Assembly (NCBI RefSeq): GCF_029962835.1
Contig: NC_080577.1
Coordinates: forward strand, 1,178,001-1,242,000
Length of the DNA: 64,000 nucleotides
Source: Magnolia sinica
Lineage: Eukaryota > Streptophyta > Magnoliopsida > Magnoliales > Magnoliaceae
Direction: 5' to 3'
Shown here: positions 4,101 through 50,478 of the stretch, in pieces
Position numbering within the stretch: position 1 is the first letter of the stretch
Layout of the letters: every line of letters begins with the position of its first letter
Program-made: the position numbers and the translations under genes
Notes under the pieces: model-generated
What the model was told of the DNA's origin: nothing
Databases searched by the model: none
What the model saw: only the letters and a program-made list of their open reading frames with translations

Positions 4101-5107
4101 TTTCCATCTTCACAGTCCCATAGTCACCGGACTTGTAGCTTGTGAAGAAATTCCTGCGTGGAGTCGCATGAAAAGAGGCTCCTGAGTTAATCACCCAATC
4201 GGTGTCCTGACTCGTAGCCGTGAAATATATATCGTGATCTATTGAAAGAATAACTACAACATCCCATCTGAAATGACCGTAGTGGAATCTGATTCATCTT
4301 CATTCTCTTTACCTTTTCCTTTCTTATAGTTCTTCTTACCACGACATTCATGCTTGTAATGGCCCTTCTTGCCACAATTTCAGCAATCAACATCCTTTCT
4401 GTTACTCAACTTGCCTCTTGATTTATCTCGGGCCTTCGTGCCATTCCTGTTCTTTCCTCTCCCCCATTCCTTTGTCATAAGGGCCTCTTGCTGAGTAGAC
4501 CCCTGAGACTTCGTCCTTGTCTCCTCATTGAAGAGACAACTGGTTACCTGTTCCATGGATATCTTTTCGTCTAGCGTGGAGTTACTTAGAGATATCACCA
4601 ATGTCTTCCAACTGTCAGGCAATAAACTAAGCAATAGTAAAGCCTGCAATTCATCATCCAGGACCATTTTCATAGCGGAGAGCTGTTTCACTATATTGCT
4701 GACCTCATTCATGTGGTCGGCCAAAGAACCACCATCCTTGAATTTGAGATTCACAAGTCGTCGTATCAAGAAAATCTTGTTACCAGCTGTCTTCCTCTCA
4801 TACAGCTCTTGTAATTTCAGCCATAGGCTAGCGGCTGAGGTTTCTGTAAACACATAGTGGAACACAGAATCATCCAGCCATTGTCTAATAAACTCTACCG
4901 CCTTCCTGTCCATCTTCTTCCAATCGTCATCAGACATATCCTTGGATTTTGCTGATATGCCTAAAATTGAAGAATATAAGTCATTGCAATAAAGCAAGTC
5001 CTCCATCTTAACCTTCTACATGTTCCAGGTAGAACCATTGAGGCTGATCATTCTTGACGAACTACCTTCCATAATTCAAAACCGATCCTACCCGTTCAAT
5101 GAACTTA

Positions 5108-5122: not shown

Positions 5123-5776
5123 TGTTGGGGGCATTGCATAAAACCTTAGGATTTAGCCTCCCAGAACAAACCAGAATTATGTGATAATAAAGCAATGAAA
5201 TAAATCAAAGTACAAACCACACCACACAAGAGATTTTTATGTGGAAAACTCTCAAAGAGGTAAAAACCATGGGACCTCGTCCAGATCAACAATCTACTAT
5301 GAAGTAGAACGTTACAACCTTCTCCACTCACGCAGGAGTGGATAAACAATAAGAAAAACAAAGAAAATGGAGAGATCTCACCGATTACGAGGACGTGAAA
5401 GTGCTGAAATATGGTAGATCACCTCTATGAGCATAGCCTCCCTTTCATAAACTTCCTCTCTCTCTCACCTTTAATAGCCCTAAACCCTTTAACAAAACCT
5501 TGCAAAGCTTTAGAAAACCCTCTTGCCTTACCTCTTAAATACCCTAGAAAACCCTAAAGACCTCTTATTTATAGTTTAGGAAACTCTCTTTCCCTCCCTT
5601 GCGAAAGCCGCCTCAAAATTTCGAATCCCGCACAAAATCGGATTCAAATCTGCGTAACCAAGACTGGTCGTGCAGGCTACAAGACTGGTCGAGCACTGTT
5701 CACTCGACTGGTTGAGCACTGTTCACAGAGCTCACTGGACTTTGAGTCGAGAGAACTGAGGAAAAAAACCTCATCA
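5123..5776 (-). repeat. Copia 5' LTR (right copy)
   Basis: Direct repeat of 361-1138, starting TGTTGG and ending CATCA. It shares the TATA region and the 'ctggtcgagcac' repeats. Its inner edge abuts the primer-binding site. Confidence 0.88.
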
Positions 5777-16787: not shown

Positions 16788-18203
16788 TCAAGCGTCCTTG
16801 ATGCCCTTCCATTTGTGGGCCACCTCAAACATGGCCTTGTAGGATGACCCACCTTCAGCTAATGCCGTGGTACTTGCATACTTGAGCTCCACCATCCTTC
16901 TCCGCAGTCTCTTCCCTTCTTCTCCTTCCATCAGCCCTTTCACGACTCGAGCGATCTCCGCCCTCCCAACGATGCCACTTTCCCCATCGGTGGGCCTTAA
17001 GGCCACCTTCAGATCTTCCACCATCATCACAGCGTTCATCTTCTGCTCGGCGTAGAGAGGCCATGCTATCATGGGCACGCCGTGCACAATACTCTCGAGT
17101 GTAGAGTTCCACCCGCAGTGAGTGAGGAACCCTCCTGTAGACTCATGGCTCAGCACTTGTATCTGTGGGGCCCACGAAGGGATCACATGGCCCACCCCTT
17201 TGGTCCTTGATAAGAACCCTTTAGGCAAGAAAGCCAAAGGATCTTGATTGCTTTCCACACCGAAAAACGTTGCATTGGCCTTCTTTTCACTGGGGCTGCG
17301 TGCAACCCACAAGAATCTCTGCTCACTCATCTCCAATCCCAACGCCAGCTCATTCACTTGTTCAAGCGAGAGGGTCCCACCACTCCCAAAACAGACGAAC
17401 AGCACAGAACCACGTGGCTGCTCATCCAACCACCTCAAGCACTCTGACCCATCACCTCCACCAATCGCAACGGTCTGTATGAGCGGTCCAACCGGGTAGA
17501 CAGCCGGGATACCCGGTTCCTTCTCCTTGAGAGCCTTTATCGGGCCCGGTTCCAACTCCACGAAGCTATTTACCAAAATACCCTTGGCTTCATTGTAACG
17601 TTTGAACTTTCGTAATACATGTCCGTAAACCTCGTGCTTGCGGTCTTGAATCGGGTCCAGGAAGTCTTTCCCGTGAAGAGGCACACAACCGGGCAATTTC
17701 AGCGGTTCGGGGATATCTCTATACTCGCACGCGTACTGTTCGTCGAGTGTGGGTAAATGAAGGCAAAAAGATAACGCCATTGCTGATGGTGGGAAGAAAA
17801 TGTAAGGTGGGATGCCGAATTCTCTTGCTACGTCGAAGGCGTCCATCCCAAAGAGATCAACGACGAGCGCGACGAGCCGGCTCGTCGAGACTAAGCTCTT
17901 AAGGACGTCGCGGATCCCAGGGAGGGACCGTGCGACACTGGATATGATGTGCGTTTCGATCTTGCTGTCGGCAGGAAGGTCGTTGAGCGTAATTGGAGGA
18001 AGTTGGATGGAATTCACATTCTTCGGGAGGGCGTCGACAACGGATTGTTGAGGATTGGAAGAGGAATCGGTGGAGATGGAGAGGAAGGTGACTGAGAAGT
18101 TGTGGTGGAGTACTAGTCGTCTGGCGAACTCAGCGAGTGGGATGAAGTGACCCATGCCCGGACTCGGCAGAATCGCTATGTGGGGAGTTCTGCTGTCTTC
18201 CAT
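16788..18203 (-). CDS. UGT72-family glucosyltransferase, hydroquinone glucosyltransferase (arbutin synthase)-like
   Basis: A full-length, single-exon family 1 glycosyltransferase of 471 residues, the usual UGT72 length and structure. The N-terminal motif PSPGMGH holds the catalytic His19 and VVDLFG holds its partner Asp116. The plant secondary product glycosyltransferase (PSPG) box runs from Trp344 to Gln387 and contains HCGWNS and ends in AEQ. Blocks such as VNSF.ELEPG and CFGSGGTLS are typical of arbutin synthases and UGT72B enzymes. It should transfer glucose from UDP-glucose to phenolic hydroxyls in the cytosol; the exact acceptor (hydroquinone, monolignol, flavonoid) cannot be told from sequence. 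The ATG is the first Met before MEDS, where the family begins. A TATA-like box lies about 70 bp upstream. It is the first of three same-strand paralogues. Confidence 0.95.
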   Translation of the reverse strand: MEDSRTPHIAILPSPGMGHFIPLAEFARRLVLHHNFSVTFLSISTDSSSNPQQSVVDALPKNVNSIQLPPITLNDLPADSKIETHIISSVARSLPGIRDVLKSLVSTSRLVALVVDLFGMDAFDVAREFGIPPYIFFPPSAMALSFCLHLPTLDEQYACEYRDIPEPLKLPGCVPLHGKDFLDPIQDRKHEVYGHVLRKFKRYNEAKGILVNSFVELEPGPIKALKEKEPGIPAVYPVGPLIQTVAIGGGDGSECLRWLDEQPRGSVLFVCFGSGGTLSLEQVNELALGLEMSEQRFLWVARSPSEKKANATFFGVESNQDPLAFLPKGFLSRTKGVGHVIPSWAPQIQVLSHESTGGFLTHCGWNSTLESIVHGVPMIAWPLYAEQKMNAVMMVEDLKVALRPTDGESGIVGRAEIARVVKGLMEGEEGKRLRRRMVELKYASTTALAEGGSSYKAMFEVAHKWKGIKDA

Positions 18204-21600: not shown

Positions 21601-24353
21601 TTTTCCTCCACTGAAATGGAGTGAGGTCAGATCTAACGTAAGCCTTATGCACTACAAAACTGATGTAAGCATTGTGCAATCCATATGAAAGCAATCTATT
21701 TTTCTCATCTTATTTAAATGTTTCCTTTTTGCGGTTACTATGGAATAAAGTTCCACTTACCTACTTTTGGTTCATGGAAGCTTGTTTTTTGTTGGGGGGT
21801 TTATTTATTGGGTTGAAATGTTGCTGGAGACAATTGGAACCGATCTCTCTAGATGTGTCAATGTGATGAAAGTGGTAGAGACGTATGGGCATGTCTGTGA
21901 CCTTAAAGTCTCATAATCTGGTGGGCCACACTTTTATGAAAGAATAGGACGGTTTTAAAAATATATATTGATTTGCAGTCCACATACAATGGGAGGAGTC
22001 ATTTTTAAGAAATAAAAATACAAAAGACAAGATCCGCCTGATATTTTTAGCTGTGGCACGTGTCACACGCTCGTGACACATTGTGGGCGATGTCGTGGAT
22101 GGCCGACAATAGGATCACACCCGTGAGTGACATTCGGGCTTTTAAGTAAAAGTTAAAAAAATAAAAATAAAAGAAATGAATGTCTACGTTGAAAAGGGTA
22201 AAGAGGATGTAACCGGATGACTAGGACTACGTAATCATTCAAAGGTTTTGTACGGTGGACTATACACGGTAGGGCCCACCAGTGACTTCTCTAGATTCAA
22301 TCGATGAATCCACATCAAAACCTACTGGTGGGACCTACCGCGTGTTGTGGGCTTGACATCTGCTCCGTCCATCAGGTGGGCCTTTTCATGTTCACCATAC
22401 ATCCTTATGATCAAGACGATAAAGGCTCAAGTAGGCCACAGCATAGTTAAAATTAAACTCGTATCTAAAACCGTCTGGATCACACATTGTGGGCTGCTTG
22501 AGTTTTGGTTGGAGCTGATTTTGAATTGTCCGTTCATCCTGATGAACTGGTCGGACGGAAAATATTCACCCACACAAATTACCTATGGTTAGCATACCCT
22601 CCCATCTCTCACTATCCTCTGTGGCATGGCCCACCAAGTGTGGAATCGACTGATTTTTGGCCCTACGTCCTATATAGCAACGAGGGGCACATCCGATGGA
22701 CGGTGTACGTCACACAAAAGACACGTATGCCACGGAGCTTGAATGTTTTACCCGTTGAGATAAGACTTTTGGAGTAATTTGGCATTTTTTTTTTCTTTTA
22801 TTAATCAATGAAACTAATCCAAAGTACATGCACATATGGGTTGGCGATGGGAAGGATTGGATCAATCGGCCTGATTCACTTTTGAGGCTGGATCAGGCCA
22901 AGCTAAAACGGGTAGTGGCTGGGGGTTTTGGTATAGAAAATGTGACTTTTGTATATAAATGGGTTGGGATTGGGTTAAACTTTCCCCAACTCACTCTCAA
23001 CATTAGGCTACGTTAAATGACCTTAATCAATACGTTAAATGACCTTAATCAAATCAGGCTCAAGCGTGAAGCTGGAGTAAGAATTATTTGTTGGAATTAT
23101 GAGCCACATATAATATATTTTCATCTGGCAATGCAATGCTTGGTTTGAATCAATTACATAACCATTAGACTGGGCCTACGTTATATTTGAGTGTATAAAG
23201 TTTTATAAGATATGAAGTATCACTTGGAATTCTGAATAGAGTTGTATAAAGTGTTTTACTCTTCTTTTCCAGTAGTAGGGAAGCATGAGTAATGAGAAAG
23301 TCCTGAAATTGATAGTTTCTTCCCATTGCCACTCTATTGTAAGGACTATTCAGTCTCCAACTCTATACATTATTTACTTGCTGTTCCGTCTGTATTTGAG
23401 TGTATAAAGTGTAGTAGGGATGGAAGATCAGATATACAAGATCTGAGTTATGCTCTAAGCCCTCACTTGTAAACATTCTCTCATTCATAAACTTTGAGCA
23501 TATCCCGTGGACTTAGGTAAAATTGCAGTGAGGATGTGAAGTAAATAGCATTTTTTTTATTATTATTATTATTTTTTTTTGTGGAATTCACTGTCCATGA
23601 ATAGCTGCATTTCCCCTCTCTCTCTTTTTCAAGAGATTTTATTTAAAATTTTAGACAGCAGCGTCCAAATGGGAGGTCATGTCCATGGATAACGACGCAT
23701 TCAAACAGTCCATGGATGTTAGCAGATCCAAACACAATAATGGTCTCTTAGAAATGGATCCAATCCAAAGTGGAGCCCATTATCCATTGACAACTGATTC
23801 GTACATTATTTGCTCATCCTGGCAATGCAAATCCAACGAAGAACAGATTGGATGAAATATTGAAAACACTCCGTGGGCCCCACACGTGAAACTGTGGTCC
23901 GTCTTCCCATTGTTCCCTGTATTGTGGATCAAGTTAAGTTTTTGCAAGAGGAACTAACACAAAAGGGCTCACTTGATGGATGGCGTGGATTTCACACAAA
24001 CAACACGGTGGGCACCTTGGAGAATCGGGGTTATGTTTTTCTGGATTTCTATCTCGTTGTGCGAGGCTTCTGATTGAATACAATCCCCTGTATCAAGTCC
24101 CACATGGGGGCCGAGTTTCCACCTTGGGATTGCATCTTTGCTGATGATCATCTGAACCGTTCAAGCTCAAGATTCTATTGTACGCATATCATTTAAAAAA
24201 AATAAAAATAAAAAATAAAAAACATTTGTTTAATGGATGCTTACACATAAAAATGAAAAAATTCAATCCAAGAGTCAAAGGTGAAGATGAATAAGCATAA
24301 TTATAAGATCATAGCTTGTCTAAGGTATAATCTAGGGATGGAAATACATATTT
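21601..24353. other. Intergenic DNA, no gene recognised
   Basis: Contains an inverted repeat at 22265-22344 with arms like CACGGTAGGGCCCACCAG around a loop of about 40 bases. Decayed MITE-like sequence follows to about 22740, then AT-rich spacer. A phrase 'atttgagtgtataaagt' occurs near 23187 and 23393, and 23552-23580 is a T-rich run. No ORF here shows a family motif. Confidence 0.45.
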
Positions 24354-25166
24354 GAAGGGGTGTACATCGAGTCGAACCGAATCGAGCTGGCCTCAACTCA
24401 ACTCGGCTCGAACACTAGCTGACCTTAGCTCGAACTTGGGTCAGCTCAGTCCTCGAGCCCGACTGGCCAGCTCGGCTCAGTTCAGTTAGCAGCTCAGGTC
24501 GAGTTTGAGCCAAGATCGAGGCATTTCCACAAACACCTGAACTGCAGCGTCAAAACCCCACTATTCATTTAGATACCATTACTTCTGCTTGGAAATGCAA
24601 GTATATGTTCCTTTTATGTTATAGTTTTCGATCTTCTCTCTCCTCCATTGATCAAATCTAGACCGTTGAAAGAAAATGCCAGGAGACAAAAAGATAGGTG
24701 TAGCCGTTGATTTCTCGAAGAGCAGCAAGCTTGCTCTCAAATGGGCCATCGACAACCTGCTCGACAAGGGTGACACGCTGATCGTCCTTCATGTCAAGCA
24801 CGGGAAGGTTGATGAGACCAAAAACTAGCTCTTGCTGAAAACCGGATCACCTAAGTTGCTATTCCTCCACTTGATCTCATCCATTCATTGAAAAATAGGA
24901 ATGGGTCTCTTCTCTTTTATCCTCAGTTGTTGGATTATGCGTTTGTAGCTCTGATTCCATTGACGGAGTTCGGAGAGCCGGAGGTGTTGAAGCAGTACGA
25001 TATTGAAATCAGTTCGCCGAGTTTGATTCGATCCAAGTTGAGTCGAGCTGGGGCCTGCTTGAATTCGGCTCGAACTCATTTTCGAGCTTAAAAAATCAAC
25101 TCAACTCGGCTCAAACTCAGCTTCGAACCAAGTCGAATCGAGCTAGCTCGGTTTGTGTACACCCCT
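24354..25166. mobile_element. Gene-capturing inverted-repeat transposon (Pack-TIR element)
   Basis: An 813-bp non-autonomous DNA element. Both ends read AGGGGTGTACA inward, followed by arms rich in 'gctcg/gagtcgag' motifs. It is flanked on both sides by ACATATTT (24346-24353 and 25167-25174), a perfect 8-bp target duplication; a ninth base, G, also matches if the left end is taken one base later. Eight bases suggests hAT, nine suggests Mutator. The middle, about 24520-25010, is not transposon sequence but a piece of a universal stress protein gene with its leader and an apparent intron. That makes it a transduplicated, DNA-level gene capture. Confidence 0.8.
24676..25010 (+). pseudogene. Captured 5' fragment of a universal stress protein (USP) gene
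   Basis: An ATG at 24676 opens 50 codons starting [20 protein letters not shown] and running to [11 protein letters not shown], the N-terminal half of a plant UspA-type protein. A stop falls at codon 51 (24826-24828), but similarity continues in frame to KTGSP (24852). After about 98 bases it resumes at 24951 as LIPLTEFGEPEVLKQYDIE. The gap fits a decayed intron: AAGTT follows the break where GTAAGT would be expected. The fragment ends at 25010, where transposon arm sequence takes over, so the ATP-binding C-terminal half is missing. A CT-rich leader precedes the ATG. It cannot make a working USP. USPs are small alpha/beta proteins that often bind ATP and respond to stress. Confidence 0.8.
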
Positions 25167-25170
25167 ACAT

Positions 25171-25264
25171 ATTTGTATGATATTGGAATATTAGGACACT
25201 ATATCCTAATTAAACACATTTGTATGATATTGGAATATTAGGACACTATATCCTATCTAAACAC
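25171..25264. repeat. Tandem duplication, about 47-bp unit, two copies
   Basis: The block starting ATTTGTATGATATTGGAATA is present twice in a row with one or two differences. It lies directly next to the gene-capturing transposon, and its first copy overlaps the right target duplication. Confidence 0.85.
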
Positions 25265-25511
25265 ATGACAGATAAGAGATGATATACGAGAGAATTATAA
25301 GAAATATAATATGTTAAAACCACCTCTTAAAGGAATATACAAAGTAGGGTGATGTTCAAATCAAGTCTGCCCATATGCTTGTCCTTAATTAGCACGAGTG
25401 GCTTATTGCATCTTACAAACTGATGAGACAATCCTATCCATCACTTTTTCTATAGTTTACCCCCCATTCCATACCTTTTACCATTAATTATTTTTATTTT
25501 ATATCATTGAT
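25265..25511. other. Short AT-rich spacer
   Basis: AT-rich, with no recognisable gene or repeat. Confidence 0.4.
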
Positions 25512-26789
25512 TGCTTGCCTCCAAGTGCAGAGGTTCGTAAGTAATATCCTGTGGGTCGATCTCACAGGGAGATGAATTGCGAGAAGGAGAAAATCAAATA
25601 CAAAACCAATTAAGTAATAAAAACTAAACTGATGATTTGATTTTGAGATTTTTGAATGGATGTAATTCAACTGAATTAAAATAACATCTAAGCTTCAAAG
25701 TTTCACACATAGGTTAATGTTCCAAAATCATGATGACTTGATTAATACAACTAGGATCAGAGCCTATGATCAGCCTAATCGGAAAATAAAAAATAAAACA
25801 ATTTAAATATTTTAATAAATGATATAAAAAATTAGAAAATCATGAATTCGCATCACTGATATATACTCTCAAGCGCCAGAGATTTTAAAAATTCAATATC
25901 AATAAGATAATGAAAATCAAAGAAATATAACAGGTTGAGAACCTTTCCTATATAGGAAATCTGATTGATCTAAGGTAAGCCTATTCATCAATAAGGATCT
26001 CATATGATGGAAACATATGGATCTGACAAGAGAATAAAAAACAAAACCTAAATAATAGATAACATGAATATACTATTCTTCTCATCATTAAAACGATCAA
26101 TCAACATAACTTAAAAAATTATTAAACCCATGTGCTTCCCTTCTAGCTTGAGGTAGAAAGAACTTAGAAAAACATATCTAAAATAGGAAAAAAAAGTAAT
26201 AAGAAAGAAATAAATGCAAATAGAAAAGATCTAAGAGGAAAATAAAATAACTTATAAAATTGAAAACCCTTTAAAACCCTAAATATTGCTCTTGAATGCT
26301 TTTAATGAAACATAGGAAAGCCCTAGGAAGCCCTATTTATAAGTAGGAAACTCCAATTTTCATACAAAGTTGGAAAACTCTATAAACTGCCTCAAATATA
26401 CGCAGTTTCTCAAAATAGACTTCTCACTACATAGTTTATTTAAAATCGATTTTCTGCTGCAAAGTTTTTCAAAATAACCCTGAGTTTCAGATTATGCTTT
26501 TTAAGGACAATTTCAAGATTCTTCACTTCAAATCTTCGATTCTTTTCATTCCTCACTTGGTTTTCTTGGATCTTTGACATGTAAATTCTTCAATATTGAT
26601 CTCCTACGATCCATCCCTTGCCTTGGTGATTCTTAAGCATCAAATCCATGCTTTTTAATACCCTTTTCAATCCAAGTTCTTAAATTCACCTTGCAACACA
26701 TACATGGGTAAAATAGAATATTAAACTAATTTATGTTCATAAAATTGAGATAGAAATGGAGAAAATTATGCATTATTTGAATCTCAACA
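25512..26789 (-). repeat. Possible LTR or LTR-like remnant, unclassified
   Basis: In minus-strand sense it begins TGTTGAGATTCAAATAATGC. Near its other end it has a 'gatcgacccacaggat'-like block that resembles phrases at LTR edges of some plant Ty3 elements. A TATAAATAGGG motif in minus sense lies at about 26332-26342. The sequence is AT-rich and non-coding. I found no matching partner LTR and no convincing target duplication, so this is tentative. Confidence 0.3.
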
Positions 26790-27107
26790 ACTATCACCAA
26801 GATGGCCTCAAATCAAATTGATAGAATGGCTTAATAGGAGCGATTTTTGAAACATAGACCATCCTTGCTCGGGCTTATTGACTATGGGTCATCCTGCCGT
26901 ATGTCCTATGGAAGGATAGCTTTACCATGTTACGGTTCTTCCTGCTCTACCGTATATGTCATCTCACTCATAAAAAAAACTAACAAAAAAAAAAGAGATG
27001 ATTGTTAATTCCACAATTGTAGAGCCTCACACATCTATGCAGGGGTACACATGTAAAAGACACATATGTGAGACCTGAGTTTTTGTATGAAGTAGGGCCG
27101 GACACGG
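26790..27107. other. Spacer, no gene seen
   Basis: Mixed sequence with an A-rich run near 26966-26995. Nothing recognisable. Confidence 0.4.
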
Positions 27108-27560
27108 CGTCCGAGCAGGGCTATGTGGGGCCCAATGTGATGTAAGTGTTTTATCTAAGCTGTTCATCGTTTTCCTCAGATCATTTTAAGGTATGATCCA
27201 AAAAATGAGGCAGGTCCAGGGATTAAGTGGACCACAAGGTGGGGATTGAACGTCCACCATTAAAAACTTCTTGGGAGCTGGAGAAGTTTCGGATCAAGCT
27301 GATATTTGTTTTTTCACTTCATCCACGTCTACATGACCTTATGAATAGGTTGGATGGTAAAAAAAAACATCACGGTGGCCCTTAGAAAGGTTTCAATGAT
27401 GGGTGTCATTATCACCGCAGCTTCCTTTGGTGTGTTCCACTGGAGCTATGGACCTGCTTTCTTTTTTGGGTCATACCTTAAAATGATATGTGAAAAGCAA
27501 TGAACGGTGTGGATAAAACACTTACATCATGGTGTGCGCCTCAAAGCCCTATTCCGACAG
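27108..27560. mobile_element. MITE, GGGCTATGTGGGGCC subfamily
   Basis: Ends 'tccgagcagggctatg' and, inverted, 'caaagccctattccga', with a full set of the common internal blocks, including 'ttgggagctggagaagtttcgg' and 'gaaaggtttcaatgatggg'. Sister copy of 15806-16250. Confidence 0.7.
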
Positions 27561-28084
27561 ATGATTTTACCGTCCCGATGGGGGTAGGATGCAATCCGCG
27601 CTGGAAGTAGGAAACTTAGATCCTCTATCTAAAAATCATTTGATTTAACTGATCTTGAAGTGGGCCACACTGTACATAGTATGTTGGTAGCTAAATTATT
27701 TTCCTATCCATTCAACTCAACAATCTAGCTCACCTAATGGAAAGATCAAATCTTCTAGAAGCAATCACGTCGTGAGATATGGACGTGGGTGTGGATGTAT
27801 ACAGCTCCGTATACATGTAGAATTGGCAAACCTTGATAAACAAAATACAAGCGCAGTATTAATGAAAAGCCTATTTTAGTCAATTAACTCATTATCTTTT
27901 GTTGACTTTTTTACAAAGTGTATGAAATTTAGTATATAATTTTTTATGCCTTAACTATAATTAGATGATTAAAGGTTGTATAAATGTGATTGTATTATAA
28001 TTAAAGTGCTCCAAAGTCACTTTTCCAAAAATAATACTTTAAATTTTAAAATTTTAATAAATTGACCATGCTCGAGTGCTCCAA
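27561..28084. other. AT-rich spacer, no gene seen
   Basis: No coding signal or clear repeat ends. Confidence 0.4.
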
Positions 28085-28556
28085 ATCTAAAGTGTTCTGA
28101 GAGCACCGTAAGTTATGGTGCTGCTAGTTTCATTGGTTCATTTGTGCAATTCAATTGATCAATGAACTGTCCATTACATTTAGAATGCATTTCATAGTTT
28201 ATGGACCTTATTTTCTACAGCCATCCGTACTCAAAGCTATGATGGGATGGCTATAATTGACTAAAATAAGTGATACTTTAGGATCATAACCACTCCATGA
28301 TGGTCCCTAACATGTAGATGGATCAAATTATTGATTAGATGCATTTTTGTGTCATTGATGTTAACTATCCGTATTAAATACCATTGATCAAATGGTTTAT
28401 TTGCCAGATTGGTGTGATGTTTGCATGGCAGGAAATTTGAGCTGAACCTGGCGAACAATCTAGGTCAAAAATATTGGATTGTTCAGGTGTCCCAATGCAA
28501 CTACAAGTGCTCTAATTTATATTGCTGTAAGAACATGCAATAGAGCATCTCTCTAA
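28085..28556. mobile_element. MITE-like element with GTGCTCTCAGAGCAC-type ends
   Basis: Begins 'agtgttctgagagcacc' and closes near 'acaagtgctctaattta'. Shared blocks ('ttgatccatct...aattgttaa', 'ccatttgatcaatggt') recur at 53800-54125 and 54395-54900. No coding capacity; the ends are approximate. Confidence 0.5.
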
Positions 28557-29049
28557 TAAATTATATAGGGAAAGTACGACCTAGGCCTCTCTCGATCTGG
28601 ACTTCCACGCACTACGGCCACCAAAACAGGTATAAGGCTCAATGCTAGTATCTACTTTTTATCTTAAACTTAAAGGCGCCTTAAGGGGAGAGGGGTGCAA
28701 AAGGGTTGGGTCAGGTGGAGGAAGTTCCAAACTTAACCCACTTAATAATATATTTGAAATTTGACATCAGTTGTTACCAGTTAAAATTTTAATAAAGTTT
28801 GCATTGGTCCAAATCAAAATAAGCTAATCCATTTATTTAATGGACTTACTGACATGCCCTAGATTATGTCCGGTCACACACCATGGCTCAAATGGGACTA
28901 AACTGGTTGCTGAAAGACTAAAAAGGCACCCAAGCTCAGTTTGCGTGCAAATGGTGCAAACTTATGACGATTCGAACCAAGAACCCATGGAACAAAATCA
29001 TCCCTCATCATTAATCAAGATCATGATCTTTTGGAATAATATATATAAG
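28557..29049. other. Spacer, no gene recognised
   Basis: The ORF beginning near 28840 runs into the next MITE and has no family motif, so I do not call it. Confidence 0.45.
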
Positions 29050-29422
29050 AGAAATGCTCATATACAACTAGTTGTACACACAACTTGTTGGCGTGTGGGC
29101 CCACAATGGGGTTCGTATGACATCTCACTCAACCATAGTGAACAAACGCCAGAAAAACCCCACAGTCACATCAGTTACATCTGGCTAGATTTAACCTTTT
29201 TCAAGGGCATCCCATTTGCATAGTGGGACAACCTCTCTTTTTTTTTTTTGTTAGCTTGTTAGTACACCCCACTGTCAGTTCACACTTCACTGTTAGCCAC
29301 CCCACTAGGGATCGATACCAAGCCCTCAGTGGCATGGTGGGACAACCTTGTTAGACGGGCAAGATATGATATAAACATCATGGTGGAACCTACACGTCTA
29401 CTAGTTGTGTATGAGCATTTCC
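29050..29422. mobile_element. MITE with AAATGCTCATA ends, interrupted by a SINE-like insertion
   Basis: Left end GAAATGCTCATATACAACTA and its inverted partner at the right end mark a small inverted-repeat element. Its middle is interrupted by a roughly 100-bp insertion at 29235-29336. The flanking target duplication is unclear. Confidence 0.7.
29235..29336 (-). mobile_element. Truncated tRNA-type SINE
   Basis: Flanked by an exact 12-bp duplication, GTGGGACAACCT, at 29223-29234 and 29337-29348. In minus-strand sense it has GGTATCGATCCC, a good match to the tRNA B box, and ends in an A-rich tail (the T run at about 29238-29249). About 100 bp, shorter than complete plant SINEs. Confidence 0.7.
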
Positions 29423-29662: not shown

Positions 29663-31069
29663 CTACATCAACCCCCATTCGTAGGCTACCTCAGACAATG
29701 CCTTCTTCGAAGACCCATCTTTGGCCAACGCCTTGGCACTTGCATCTTTAAGATCTTCCATCTTTGTTCGCAATCTCTTCCCTTCATCTCCTGCCATCAG
29801 ATCCTCAACAACACGAGCGATCTCCTCTTTCTCAACTATTCCATCCACCTTGGCAGTGGGCCTCAAAGCCACCTTTAGGTCCTCCACCAGCAATACAGCA
29901 TTCATCTTTTGCTCAGCATACAGTGGCCATGCTATCATGGGCACACCGTGCACGATACTCTCAAGTGTAGAGTTCCATCCACAGTGAGACAAGAAACCTC
30001 CTGTAGACCCATGGCCCAGCACTTGGATCTGTGGGGCCCATGAAGGGACTACAAATCCCACGCCCTTGGTCCTTGACAGGAACCCTTTTGGTAAAAAGCC
30101 CAAAGGTTCTTGATTGCTTTGGACACTGAAAAACGTTGCACTTGCATTCTTTTCATGTGGGCCTCTTGCAACCCATAAGAACCGTTGCCCACTCATCTCC
30201 AATCCCAAGGCCAGTTCATTCAGCTGCTCCATCGAGAGGGTCCCACCACTCCCAAAACAGACATAAAGCACCGAGCCACGTGGCTGCTCATCCAACCATC
30301 TCAAACAGTCGAGCCCATCTCCCCCACCTGCCGAACTGGACTGTACAACCGGTCCAATCGGGTAGAGTGGAGGAACTCCCGGTTCTCTCCTCAAAGCATT
30401 TACGGTTTCCGGTTCCAAGTCCACAAAACTGTTCACTAAAATACCCTTGGCCTTTTTATGACTTCTGCATACCTTAAGGAGCCACGTGTAAGCGTCGTTG
30501 GACCGGTCTAATGCCGGTTCAAAAACGTTCTCTCCATGAAACGGTACGCAACCGGGCAGTTTCACCGGTTCAGCTAGATCGCTGTACGCGCACGAGTATG
30601 TGGCGTCCAACGTTGGTAGATGGAGTGTGAAAGATAACGCCATGCACGTCGAGGTATAAAAGATGTATGTTGGGACTCCAACCTCCGCGGCAACATCCAG
30701 TGCGTCCATTCCAAATAGATCGACGATGATCGCAACGAGTCTCGTCGTCGACGCTAGGTTCTTCAAAACATTACGTATGGATTGGATGGAACGATTAAAG
30801 TTAGCACAGATTCGGGTTTCCACCTTGGCATCTTCGGGGATGTTCTCTACGGAAGGTGGAGGGTCGATGACTATGGATTTTACGGTTTTGGGAAGGGTAT
30901 CCAAGATGGAGTTCTGGGTTTTAGATGTGGCCCCTATAGTGAGAGTGATGAACGTTAGGGAGAAGTTGTAGTGGTGAGCAAGGCGCTTAGCCAACTCAGC
31001 GAGTGGGATGAGGTGACCCATTCCTGGACTCGGTAGAATGGCTACATGGGGAATTTCAGAATCTTCCAT
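29663..31069 (-). CDS. UGT72-family glucosyltransferase, hydroquinone glucosyltransferase (arbutin synthase)-like
   Basis: Second intact paralogue: 468 residues in one exon, again starting MEDS. His19 lies in PSPGMGH, Asp117 in IVDLFG, and the PSPG box runs from Trp344 to Gln387 with HCGWNS and the closing AEQ. It is colinear with the first copy through almost its whole length; the acceptor-side region (about residues 40-105 and 155-205) differs most, as expected if substrate choice has shifted. It should be a cytosolic UDP-glucose-dependent phenol glucosyltransferase. The C-terminus is a little shorter than in its neighbour (ends EWGLM). The gene lies about 11.5 kb upstream, in the sense of transcription, of the first copy. 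No convincing TATA box is visible; a weak CTATATGTAT lies about 55 bp before the ATG. Confidence 0.95.
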   Translation of the reverse strand: MEDSEIPHVAILPSPGMGHLIPLAELAKRLAHHYNFSLTFITLTIGATSKTQNSILDTLPKTVKSIVIDPPPSVENIPEDAKVETRICANFNRSIQSIRNVLKNLASTTRLVAIIVDLFGMDALDVAAEVGVPTYIFYTSTCMALSFTLHLPTLDATYSCAYSDLAEPVKLPGCVPFHGENVFEPALDRSNDAYTWLLKVCRSHKKAKGILVNSFVDLEPETVNALRREPGVPPLYPIGPVVQSSSAGGGDGLDCLRWLDEQPRGSVLYVCFGSGGTLSMEQLNELALGLEMSGQRFLWVARGPHEKNASATFFSVQSNQEPLGFLPKGFLSRTKGVGFVVPSWAPQIQVLGHGSTGGFLSHCGWNSTLESIVHGVPMIAWPLYAEQKMNAVLLVEDLKVALRPTAKVDGIVEKEEIARVVEDLMAGDEGKRLRTKMEDLKDASAKALAKDGSSKKALSEVAYEWGLM

Positions 31070-38433: not shown

Positions 38434-39831
38434 TCAGAGGTTCTTCCATTCCCGGGCCACCTCAGACAGAGCCATGAAAGAAGATCCATCTTCAGCTAAA
38501 GCCCTAGCACTAGCATCTTTCAGTTCTTGCATCCTTTTCTTCATCCTCTCTCCTTCTTCACCCTCCATTAGATCCTTCACGATTCTAGCAATCTCTTCCC
38601 TCCCCACCAAACCATTCTCACCAGCAGTGGGCCTCAGTGCTACTTTTAGACCGTCCACCAACAGTACAGCATTCATCTTCTGCTCTGCATAGAGTGGCCA
38701 TGCTATCATGCGCACACCGTGCACAATACTCTCGAGTGACGAGTTCCATCCACAGTGAGATAAGAACCCTCCTGTAGACATGTGGCTCAGCACTTGGATC
38801 TGTGGGGCCCATGAAGGAACCACAAGCCCTACCGCTTTTGTTCTAGCAACAAACCCTTTCGGTAGATAGTCGGAAGGATCACTAGAAAACATTGCAGTAC
38901 TGGAATCTTTTCCATGTGGGCAACGCACAACCCACAAGAACCTTTGGCCACTCAGCTCTAATCCCAAGGCCAGCTCGTTCATCTGATCAGAAGAGAGGGT
39001 CCCACCACTCCCAAAACACACGAACAGTACAGAGCCACGTGGCTGCTGGGCCAACCATCTCAAACACTCGTGCGTATCCCCTTCACGGACCGAATCAGTT
39101 CGTACAACCGGTCCAACAGGGTAAACAGACGGTCCACCGAGTCGCCCTTCCTTCAAAGCATGGATAGCTTCCGGTTCCAATCCAGTGAAGCTATTTACCA
39201 AAATACCCTTCGCTTCTTTGTACCGTTTCGTGTGACGTAGGATCCATAGATAAGCTTCATCCGACCGTTGAGAAATTCCGTCTGGCAGATCACTTCCTTG
39301 GATTGGAACACAGCCAGGCAGCTTCAGTGGCTCTGGCATGTATTCATAATCGCCGGAGAAGGTTGTGTCGAGTGTTGGAAGGTAGAGGCAGAACGACAAG
39401 GCCATGGACGATATGGGGCAGATGATGTAGGGTGTGATCCGCAGCTCTTGAGCCACGTCAAGTGCATCTGTCCCGAAGAGATCCACTAGGAGAGAGACGA
39501 GTTGAGTGGTGGATGCTAAGGCCTTGAGAGCGTCACGGAAGGATGGCATGGATCGGTTCATGGCGATGCAGAGCTGGGTCTCCACGCGGGTGGTGTTGGG
39601 GACGTCGTGCAAGGGAGGTGGAGGGAGAAAAATGGAATTTATGGACTTCGGGAGGGCATTTAAGATTTCATGTTGAGCTGGTTGGGGGGTGGAATCCATG
39701 CAAGGGATGATGAATGTTACAGAGAAGTTGTGGTAGAGGACGAGTCGGCGAGCCAACTCAGTGAGTGGGATGAGGTGACCCATGCCTGGACACGGTAGAA
39801 TCGCTACGCGTGGGGATTGCTCCTCATCCAT
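38434..39831 (-). CDS. UGT72-family glucosyltransferase, diverged third copy
   Basis: A 465-residue single-exon UGT. I start it at the ATG of MDEEQSP, at 39831, because the family begins there; the open frame runs 67 codons further upstream, but that part is a translated (GA)n repeat and unlike any UGT. His19 (PCPGMGH), Asp117 (LVDLFG) and the PSPG box (Trp341-Gln384, HCGWNS, AEQ) are kept, so it should be an active fold. Two conserved spots are changed: the PSPG box has HGVR where paralogues and the family have HGVP (Arg374), and the linker motif reads RWLAQQP instead of RWLDEQP. The first helix reads PCPG instead of PSPG. It may have altered donor or acceptor use, or be on the way to decay. 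It lies about 7.4 kb from the second copy, same strand. Confidence 0.92.
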   Translation of the reverse strand: MDEEQSPRVAILPCPGMGHLIPLTELARRLVLYHNFSVTFIIPCMDSTPQPAQHEILNALPKSINSIFLPPPPLHDVPNTTRVETQLCIAMNRSMPSFRDALKALASTTQLVSLLVDLFGTDALDVAQELRITPYIICPISSMALSFCLYLPTLDTTFSGDYEYMPEPLKLPGCVPIQGSDLPDGISQRSDEAYLWILRHTKRYKEAKGILVNSFTGLEPEAIHALKEGRLGGPSVYPVGPVVRTDSVREGDTHECLRWLAQQPRGSVLFVCFGSGGTLSSDQMNELALGLELSGQRFLWVVRCPHGKDSSTAMFSSDPSDYLPKGFVARTKAVGLVVPSWAPQIQVLSHMSTGGFLSHCGWNSSLESIVHGVRMIAWPLYAEQKMNAVLLVDGLKVALRPTAGENGLVGREEIARIVKDLMEGEEGERMKKRMQELKDASARALAEDGSSFMALSEVAREWKNL

Positions 39832-39832
39832 G

Positions 39833-39885
39833 CTCTCTCTCTCTCTCTCTCTCTCGCTCTCTCTCTCTCTCTCATATATATATAC
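39833..39885 (-). promoter_or_regulatory. (GA)n leader with adjacent TATATATA, third UGT gene
   Basis: A CT run (GA in the sense of the gene), nearly perfect, fills 39833-39873 directly before the ATG. It is followed upstream by TATATATATA at about 39874-39884. GA-rich leaders are common in plants. The TATA-like run is only about 45-55 bp from the ATG, so either the leader is very short or the true promoter is further up. Confidence 0.45.
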
Positions 39886-40617
39886 AAAGAGGAGGGGAAT
39901 TGTACGCCCAGTACGCCCACACGCGCCTATTGACGCAGCACACATGCCGCACACGCATCCATTCATGCAGCACGCATGCCAAAGGGTGGCTTCAACTACG
40001 ATGTGCATGGCCCACACAGCCCACAGGTGCACACTGAAAGTGGATATACTATCCTTTATTTAGACATATGGTGGCTGGAACTGTTTTTTTTTTTTTTTAC
40101 CTCGTTTTTGAAAAACTTTGTTAAATTAAACCATCCAAATTATGATATCCAGTGTAGATGTATTATGAACCAAAACTAAGATTATTATTTTTTCCTATCA
40201 TCTGACTATCGGATTGGTGGAGATGTATAAAAACTATCCACGGATCTTGTTTCTATAAATAAATAAGTATGCACGAATAAGAGATTAGGTTTACTCAGCC
40301 GACCTGATCTTCGGATTATGAATTGGAGACGGTGGGATGCGCAATATTCACTTAATACATGCTACATGGATAATTTCTGAGTGCCTGTGTATGAAACATC
40401 CGCAGCCTGAGTATCTTGCTTTTTTGTTTATTACATAATGTCATCTTCTAGAAGGATTTATTGTTCTTTTCCTCTTCTTCTTCTTCTCTTTTTTTTTAAA
40501 AAATTATATATTATCATCTTCTAGATGGGCTTGCTGTTCTTTTCCTTTTTCATGTTTTTGTTTTTTACGTAATGTTATCTTCTGGATGGCGGCCAACACT
40601 GCTATGCGGGTCCCATA
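39886..40617. other. Upstream region of the third UGT gene
   Basis: No gene. A T-rich run lies at 40083-40099. About 40360-40420 carries decayed TTGATACTCTG-family sequence. A 'tgttcttttcctyttt' block occurs twice, near 40461 and 40533. Confidence 0.4.
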
Positions 40618-40819
40618 CAAGGGTGCCAATAACTTTAGAGAAAAATATACTCTGCAGAGTATGACAGATAGTGCACATGTATCTTTAAGTTACTTAGAGA
40701 TTGCATATGTGGAATATGTGAGTAATTTAGATTAAACGGTCTAACTTATGTATGAGTCTAGATGCACTGTAAACCAAAAATTACACATTTGATTAACATA
40801 CAATCAGAATGGTGGCCAT
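40618..40819. repeat. Left copy of a 202-bp duplicated flank
   Basis: By eye identical over 202 bases to 50136-50337. It is the left arm and body of a TTGATACTCTG-type MITE into which the gypsy element is inserted at 40835. Only the right copy continues into the rest of that MITE. Confidence 0.92.
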
Positions 40820-40834
40820 ATATTGAAATCATAC

Positions 40835-41363
40835 TGTTGGGGGCAAAAATACAAGTCCGAAGATTCGGACTTAATGCCTCGGGACTCGGACTTAATACCT
40901 CGGGTCACCGAAGGATGTGTCAAATCCGAGGCATGGTTCGCTAAACCGAGACAATGGTTGAGTCGGTTCGGACGACTTATCAGCGTTCCAGGCATGTGTC
41001 GGGCGGACCACCTTGCAAGACCGACCGTCGCTAGGTCAGATCTCATCCCGGATATCTTGGGATAAGATCTCCGACCCCGAAGCTCACGGGATCGGATGAC
41101 GGCTCAAGACGGGCACGATCCTATCTCCGTGATACCAGGAGAAGATCCCGCGCTCAATATCAGGAGGACCCCAGCAGCTATAAAAGGAGGACCCCTGTCA
41201 CCTTGAGAGGTACGAAACAAATTCCCTCTAAAAACCTTTCAATACTTTGAGACCCCGAGTCCAGGCCTGACTTTGGCATCAGAGGGTCCAGGGTCTCCTT
41301 TGTCCTCTTCCTGTGCAGGCATACAAGGGTTCAGGAGGACGAACCAGACACATTGCATCAACA
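40835..41363 (+). repeat. Gypsy 5' LTR, complete
   Basis: 529 bp, from TGTTGGGGGC to GCATCAACA. TATAAAAGG at 41179-41187 is the likely core promoter. Confidence 0.9.
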
Positions 41364-49859: not shown

Positions 49860-50135
49860 TGTTGGGGGCAAAAATACAAGTCCGAAGATTCGGACTTAAT
49901 GCCTCGGGACTCGGACTTAATACCTCGGGTCACCGAAGGATGTGTCAAATCCGAGGCATGGTTCGCTAAACCGAGACAATGGTTGAGTCGGTTCGGACGA
50001 CTTATCAGCGTTCAGGGCATGTGTCGGGCGGACCACCTTGCAAGACCGATCGTCGCTAGGTCAGATTCATTCCGGATATCTTGGGATAAGATCTCCGACC
50101 CCAAGCTCACGAGATCGGATGACGGCTCAAGACGG
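49860..50135 (+). repeat. Gypsy 3' LTR, 5' part only
   Basis: Matches the first 276-278 bases of the 5' LTR with about seven differences, then stops abruptly at a junction with the duplicated flank. The TATA box and everything after it are absent. Confidence 0.92.
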
Positions 50136-50337
50136 CAAGGGTGCCAATAACTTTAGAGAAAAATATACTCTGCAGAGTATGACAGATAGTGCACATGTAT
50201 CTTTAAGTTACTTAGAGATTGCATATGTGGAATATGTGAGTAATTTAGATTAAACGGTCTAACTTATGTATGAGTCTAGATGCACTGTAAACCAAAAATT
50301 ACACATTTGATTAACATACAATCAGAATGGTGGCCAT
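50136..50337. repeat. Right copy of the 202-bp duplicated flank
   Basis: Identical by eye to 40618-40819. It runs on without a break into the remainder of its MITE, as an unoccupied insertion site would. Confidence 0.92.
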
Positions 50338-50478
50338 TTATTGGAATGATGACGGTGAAAAGTAATAAACGGTCATATATCAACAAACAAGTATCAATGA
50401 ACCAAATATCAGGATTGTTCAAACAATCTGATTTGAAGATGTTAACTAATGGGAAATGAGTTTCAAACATAGTATCAA
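50161..50478. mobile_element. TTGATACTCTG-family MITE, uninterrupted copy
   Basis: Left end 'atatactctgcagagtatga' and right end 'catagtatcaaataactcc' resemble the ends of 56364-56698. The same element is present only as its left portion at 40640-40834, where the gypsy element interrupts it. Confidence 0.6.

Follow-up and report, generated by a model that had tools for sequence, protein, structure and literature searches.

The best-known cases of systematic gene capture are Pack-MULEs (Mutator-like elements, or MULEs, with gene pieces) and Helitrons. Here we describe an 813-bp element in a 64,000-nucleotide stretch of the Magnolia sinica genome (hereafter the window; NC_080577.1, positions 1,178,001 to 1,242,000, or C5:1178001-1242000) that carries part of a universal stress protein (USP) gene. 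This element is very probably a non-autonomous Pack-TYPE transposon of the hAT superfamily, which captured its piece of a USP gene on C4 from genomic DNA and moved to at least three sites. Gene capture by hAT elements is already published for maize Ds, grapevine Hatvine-6 and Pack-hATs, as passages of the respective papers state (PMC3260210, PMC2528002, PMC8903248), and the relevant passage of the maize study calls it a rare feature (PMC3260210). What makes the present case valuable is that its donor is identified, that three daughter copies exist and that its relatives carry a variety of inserts.

For Ac/Ds, the passages of the maize study describe duplications of 8 bp, ends of 11 bp (C/TAGGGATGAAA and TTTCATCCCTA) and repeated motifs in the last 200 bp; in Ac, the subterminal repeats are several copies of a hexamer that lie no more than about 200 bp from the ends (PMC3260210). 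The Magnolia element resembles Ds2 and Ds-l4 as these passages describe them: 11-bp ends C/TAGGG...CCCTA, 8-bp duplications, subterminal repeats, a modal length near 1 kb (for Ds-l4), filler DNA separating the ends and gene pieces that include introns (PMC3260210). It differs from them in the letters after the first GGG and in its subterminal motif, which is of the GCTCGA type and not AAACGG. Gene fragments are counted in 11 of 903 maize Ds elements, namely 2 Ds2 and 9 Ds-l4 (PMC3260210), compared to private inserts in 11 of 28 sampled relatives here; only some of these inserts are recognisably genic, and the relatives do not sample the whole genome.

Two other systems are close. The Pack-TYPE survey, in the parts concerned, describes Pack-hATs as non-autonomous elements with terminal inverted repeats (TIRs), host coding DNA, several copies and a target site duplication, all of which our element shares; the survey covers maize and rice, with Pack-hATs analysed in maize, and our element comes from another plant (PMC8903248). 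Hatvine-6 is likewise a hAT family whose members have common ends but differ in the interior, where exons and introns of genes are matched; its elements share transposase coding sequence according to the passage on them (PMC2528002), whereas the 813-bp element has no open frame of at least 150 amino acids. Pack-MULEs also carry host gene pieces, and the difference lies in the lengths of the duplication and the terminal repeat.

The terminal sequence of the element was not found in print among the matches listed, which were judged by title and included a Mycoplasma transposon construct and the genome of Parhyale; this is weak evidence. Among the matches listed for universal stress protein together with gene capture, the stress protein term appeared only for bacterial KdpD; the exon 2 peptide letters combined with the stress protein term gave no match in the literature.

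The element and its captured gene piece

The element spans 24355-25167 between two UDP-glycosyltransferase genes of the window. Its features are given on the plus strand except for the 3′ TIR. The ends AAGGGGTGTACA...TGTACACCCCTA, that is the 5′ TIR at 24355-24366 and the 3′ TIR at 25156-25167 (minus strand), are in register with an 8-bp target site duplication CATATTTG at 24347-24354 and 25168-25175. The flanks have 10 bp in common (TACATATTTG at 24345-24354 and 25166-25175). Only the 8-bp reading sets both ends in register, and duplications of 9 or 10 bp shift them by one or two.

The sequence-only reading had placed a small transposon at 24346-25174, with inverted ends AGGGGTGTACA and TGTACACCCCT, a flanking duplication ACATATTT and about 490 bases of USP-derived cargo. 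The element, its inverted ends, a duplication and a USP insert are all present. The limits are those given above, the left side keeps an orphan GA if ACATATTT is taken as the duplication, and the first part of the supposed cargo (24520-24565) turned out to be inner arm.

The window was scanned for perfect inverted repeats of 10 bp that have a perfect direct repeat of 8 bp no more than 2 bp away. The scan gave four matches, three of which are registers of the element's own end pair; 30 Markov-1 random windows gave 0 matches in total. No element was recognised at the fourth match (25737-29019), and such matches thus occur in real DNA. A match to GGGGTGTACT at 29261-29270 was inspected as a possible further element, and none was recognised. 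Within the window there are no other copies of the arms at E-values up to 0.1, none of the self-matches at E-values up to 1e-5 touches the element, and Rfam and tRNA scans found nothing. A 47-bp tandem duplication (25167-25266, 2.1 copies, 94% alike) starts at the right edge of the element, on the target duplication itself.

From outside in, the 5′ TIR is followed by a subterminal arm (24367-24571) with GCTCGA/AGCTCG-type repeats in both orientations, delimited by arm comparison (24367-24519 only), genome search and relatives. The cargo then occupies 24572-25009 (438 bp), and the 3′ subterminal arm (25010-25155) carries deletions relative to the sister elements described below, with 44 gapped columns in the sister alignment over 25010-25167. 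Alignment to the C4 gene divides the cargo into 104 bp of leader (24572-24675), 175 bp of exon 1 (24676-24850; 58 codons and one base), a 98-bp intron (24851-24948) and the first 61 bp of exon 2 (24949-25009).

The first 50 codons (24676-24825) match PF00582 with an E-value of 6.1e-10, which bears out the USP identity first proposed for the cargo. The Pfam match of the spliced piece is no longer than that of exon 1 (residues 5-53); exon 2 lies outside it and is assigned from the USP genes on C4 and C8, not from Pfam. The position of the first intron is the same in the cargo and in these two genes. Its donor reads GTAAGT in the C4 parent and in the C19 sister, GTGAGT in the C14 sister and CTAAGT in the window copy, where the acceptor TTGTAG is intact. 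A TAG stop (24826-24828) is present in the window copy and in C19; C14 and the C4 parent read CAG.

Other databases added little to this picture. The USP piece has no match at 0.001 among solved structures, where 29 sequences at E-values up to 1 (designed repeat proteins, importins) were taken as noise, and it matches no NCBIfam family. Relatives of exon 1 number 0 in viral contigs, 0 in plasmids and 4 bacterial loci in prokaryote contigs, which are uninformative on a plant intron. A pattern scan of viral contigs gave a single locus, which served only in a tblastn comparison.

Because leader, intron and exon parts are all present, the cargo derives from genomic DNA. An mRNA origin is ruled out by the intron, which is found in all three elements and in the parent. 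The leader and decayed intron from which the sequence-only reading had drawn the same conclusion are confirmed by the C4 alignment.

Donor gene, daughter copies and route of capture

Using 24520-25010 as the query, as the sequence-only reading had proposed for finding parent and sister copies, we searched the genome (1,838,573,281 bases in 127 contigs) and scored 40 of 460 first-look candidates. Besides itself, the query matches C4 (92%, query positions 50-490), C19 (89%), C14 (88%) and C8 (68%). Both a parent gene and sister elements are among these matches.

The C4 match is a USP gene with 92.7% identity to the window cargo over 438 sites. It has exon 1 and a GTAAGT donor, and its exons 2 and 3 run on past the breakpoint. 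Between the USP genes on C4 and C8, 72% of residues 1-58 are shared, as is the position of the first intron, and the third exons have 80% of 40 residues in common. A match to exon 4 of the C8 gene, which was chosen by a USP motif, lies at C4:112438737-112438820 (50% of 28 residues, E-value 1.1e-9). The C4 gene thus appears to be an intact USP gene, in the sense that no defect is seen in the four matched exons. A BLAST comparison of the element region (E-value at most 1e-3) with 1.5 kb on either side of the C4 match hits the cargo only. According to the sequence-only reading, intact USP genes with these arms on either side would refute a capture; this arrangement was looked for at the C4 locus and not found.

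The C19 and C14 matches are complete 884-bp elements with perfect TAGGGGTGTACA...TGTACACCCCTA ends, flanked by the duplications GTGATGTG/ATGATGTG and GTTGAAAC/GCTGAAAC, respectively (7/8 each). They contain the same cargo with the same breakpoints as the window copy, at other sites. Since the C4 gene has no arms and the sisters show identical breakpoints elsewhere, we conclude that the cargo was captured from genomic DNA, and sequence comparison identifies the C4 gene as the donor.

Kimura two-parameter distances of the cargo to the parent are 0.077 for the window copy, 0.078 for C14 and 0.102 for C19; between elements they are 0.118, 0.118 and 0.121. At eight cargo sites all three elements agree with one another and differ from the parent; four sites group C19 with C14, four the window copy with C19 and none the window copy with C14, which is near a star. 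Identical breakpoints together with these eight sites argue for a single capture, and one capture with early spread explains the pattern.

We propose that in an ancestral element the 438-bp piece of the C4 gene was copied from genomic DNA into the space between the arms, replacing the core found in other members of the family. The capture step may have been the filling of an excision break by copying from the C4 gene with template switching, in the course of which the core would have been lost from the element. An origin of captured pieces in excision-break repair is cited as a suggestion in the Gene capture section of the maize study (PMC3260210). The chimeric element then spread to three sites or more, making 8-bp target duplications there; the transposase was presumably of the hAT type and supplied in trans by another element. 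The copies have diverged since, and the window copy has lost its splice donor and gained a stop.

The other published proposal for capture, put forward for Pack-TYPE elements in the passage concerned, is the joint movement of neighbouring elements (PMC8903248). Two nearby family members would move as one together with the intervening DNA, and no excision break would have to be repaired. Folded singly, each arm forms a hairpin, as two small elements might: 0 of 200 shuffles are as stable for the single arms, compared to 29 of 200 for a cargo stretch. Yet the C4 gene shows no remnant of two elements up to 1.5 kb from the match, and relatives that have no USP cargo already carry both arms, although this evidence is not decisive. 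We consider joint movement a possible but less likely route.

We also considered whether the USP piece has been retained for a function, either as part of a chimeric protein or because it gives rise to small RNAs directed at the C4 gene. The C14 element (L009:1310-2193) has neither of the stops found in C19, and its predicted spliced open frame, with GT..AG ends, comprises 99 amino acids, of which 78 are USP-derived and 21 arm-derived. Exact 21-mers in common with the parent number 69 in the window copy, 39 in C19 and 76 in C14; in addition, the passage of a review dealing with captured sequences describes those of maize Helitrons, Pack-MULEs and a Sirevirus as reservoirs of small interfering RNAs (PMC13317346). 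On the other side, the window copy has a stop and an altered donor, and C19 has two stops before the end of exon 1, the shared TAG and another two codons on. Exon 1 changes relative to the parent fall on codon positions 1, 2 and 3 in the ratios 2:5:5 (window copy), 9:5:7 (C19) and 3:4:7 (C14). This spread, 14:14:19 for the three elements summed, does not suggest any protein constraint. Retention for function appears improbable.

Relatives, other inserts and superfamily placement

The inner-arm motif (the first 46-49 bases of the query; inner 46 bp at 24520-24565) has at least 35 short matches elsewhere in the genome. We took 35 relatives with their flanks, selected by this motif only; they are the best-scoring end of a larger set and are biased towards a well-kept 46-bp motif. 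Three of them (L011, L012, L013) were used in longer form as L040, L054 and L055. A relative was counted as having paired ends if neither end had more than two substitutions and the two copies of the 8-bp duplication differed at no more than two positions. When several end candidates existed near the motif match, the pair with the fewest mismatches was taken, so that some selection is built in.

Based on this definition, 28 of the 35 relatives have paired ends, with 11 perfect duplications, 16 with one mismatch and one with two. The duplication has at most one mismatch in 27 of the 28, compared to 3 of 756 pairings of left and right flanks from different elements. Seven relatives were dropped for a missing end or more than two mismatches (L040, L055, L028, L031, L032, L034 and L045).

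In other family members, similarity to the C14 element is confined to its positions 1-237 or so and about 690-884, and a core stands where C14 has the USP piece. We called an insert private if it had a stretch of 100 bp or more with no base found in more than two others of the 31 elements compared. Apart from the USP piece, such inserts are found in 11 of the 28 paired relatives, nine of them distinct: L054 and L020 share one insert, L035 and L042 another, and L025, L026, L029, L037, L044, L048 and L049 have their own.

Three inserts resemble genes. L054 (the longer version of L012) contains an ERG4/ERG24 piece with a Pfam E-value of 6.8e-8, above the family cut-off, and L026 a CHMP1 piece with a solved-structure E-value of 9.7e-7 and no Pfam match. 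A leucine-rich repeat (LRR) piece in L035 and L042 has Pfam E-values of 7e-6 and 2.4e-4, both below the family cut-offs. The ERG4/ERG24, CHMP1 and LRR pieces are all reversed in orientation relative to the arms. Chosen frames, a selection of all frames, from L025, L029, L031, L037, L044, L048 and L049 gave no Pfam match at 0.01. A 156-residue open frame in L025, which we take to be SPL-like, has no match in Pfam or among solved structures. As judged from these similarities, the relatives seem to have acquired pieces of several other genes.

The interiors of L012, L025, L029 and L035 have an inner 3′ stretch in common whose reverse strand reads AID(V/I)A(H/D)Q(L/M)FDKMT. This is presumably a pentatricopeptide repeat-like sequence; a 28-residue query, with two leading residues mistyped, gave no Pfam match. 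The family core may itself contain an older captured piece.

A bolder and rather improbable reading is that gene capture is unusually frequent in this hAT lineage and that the spliceable chimeric frame of C14 could yield a novel short protein or, together with the sister copies, small RNAs that target the stress gene. Because it combines ten distinct private inserts (the USP piece plus nine), one identified donor gene and three daughter copies whose divergence is measured, this small hAT family makes a workable case for studying DNA pickup by cut-and-paste elements. The breakpoints of the ten inserts, taken together, might tell copying during repair apart from the joint movement of neighbouring elements.

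We compared the arms of the window copy (24367-24519 and 25011-25155). Local scores are 39.0 in direct and 35.0 in inverted orientation (shuffle mean 16.5), and 0 of 500 shuffles reach either score. The TIR is short, and beyond the short ends the arms are about equally alike in both orientations. The hexamer GCTCGA occurs eight times in the two arms, a count that 0 of 500 shuffles reach. An 8-bp duplication, short Ac/Ds-like ends and repeated subterminal motifs are thus all present, as in hAT elements. A host gene piece between TIRs, a parent elsewhere in the genome and more than one copy agree with the Pack-TYPE description.

Some observations weigh against the hAT placement or leave it less sharp. 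No transposase or autonomous partner with these ends turned up, although no search was aimed at hAT transposases. The inverted similarity of the arms itself exceeds that of the shuffles, and the window copy starts with A where both sisters start with T. Six of eight perfect duplications are compatible with 9 bp in some register, with none common to all (4/8 and 2/8); this check of the ninth base covers these eight duplications. Finally, the hAT label is a probable one by analogy, resting on the ends, the duplication length and the arm anatomy as compared to the passages on Ac/Ds (PMC3260210).

The sequence-only reading had pointed to Pack-MULEs and similar elements. The general kind, an element carrying a gene piece, was right; the nearest described kind is a hAT Pack-TYPE element. 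Pack-MULEs are presented as the best-known gene-capturing TIR elements in passages of two papers (PMC8903248, PMC3310237), and the 10 flanking bases shared by the window copy, taken alone, permit a 9-bp duplication. Nevertheless, the relatives have 8-bp duplications and the arms are no more alike inverted than direct, whereas the parts of the MULE study that treat these features give duplications of 9-11 bp and terminal repeats typically of 100-500 bp (PMC3310237). Neither a 9-11 bp duplication nor a TIR of about 100-500 bp is found here. Because of the 8-bp duplications and the short terminal repeat, we consider the element not to be a MULE, and a Pack-MULE very unlikely.

A host USP gene decaying in place with the two arms flanking it by chance would account for leader, exon and intron in their natural order, but is ruled out for practical purposes by the C19 and C14 loci, where identical breakpoints and the same cargo and arms lie within separate 8-bp duplications, and by the C4 parent, which has no adjoining arms.

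Other features of the window

Apart from the hAT-type element, the window contains probable retrotransposons. Direct repeats at 361-1002 and 5123-5754 are 90% alike, with a copia-type gag frame (4380-5006) between them, and probably mark a long terminal repeat (LTR) retrotransposon. Two direct repeats, one of 215 bp (98.6% alike) and one of 278 bp (97.5%), occur at 40618-41112 and 49860-50350, in the order A-B on the left and B-A on the right; they surround reverse-transcriptase and gypsy-type frames, and the arrangement resembles a permuted LTR element. We also found UDP-glycosyltransferase frames on the minus strand at 16788-18203, 29663-31069 and 38434-40032. Their DNA is 69-73% alike, as in an old cluster.

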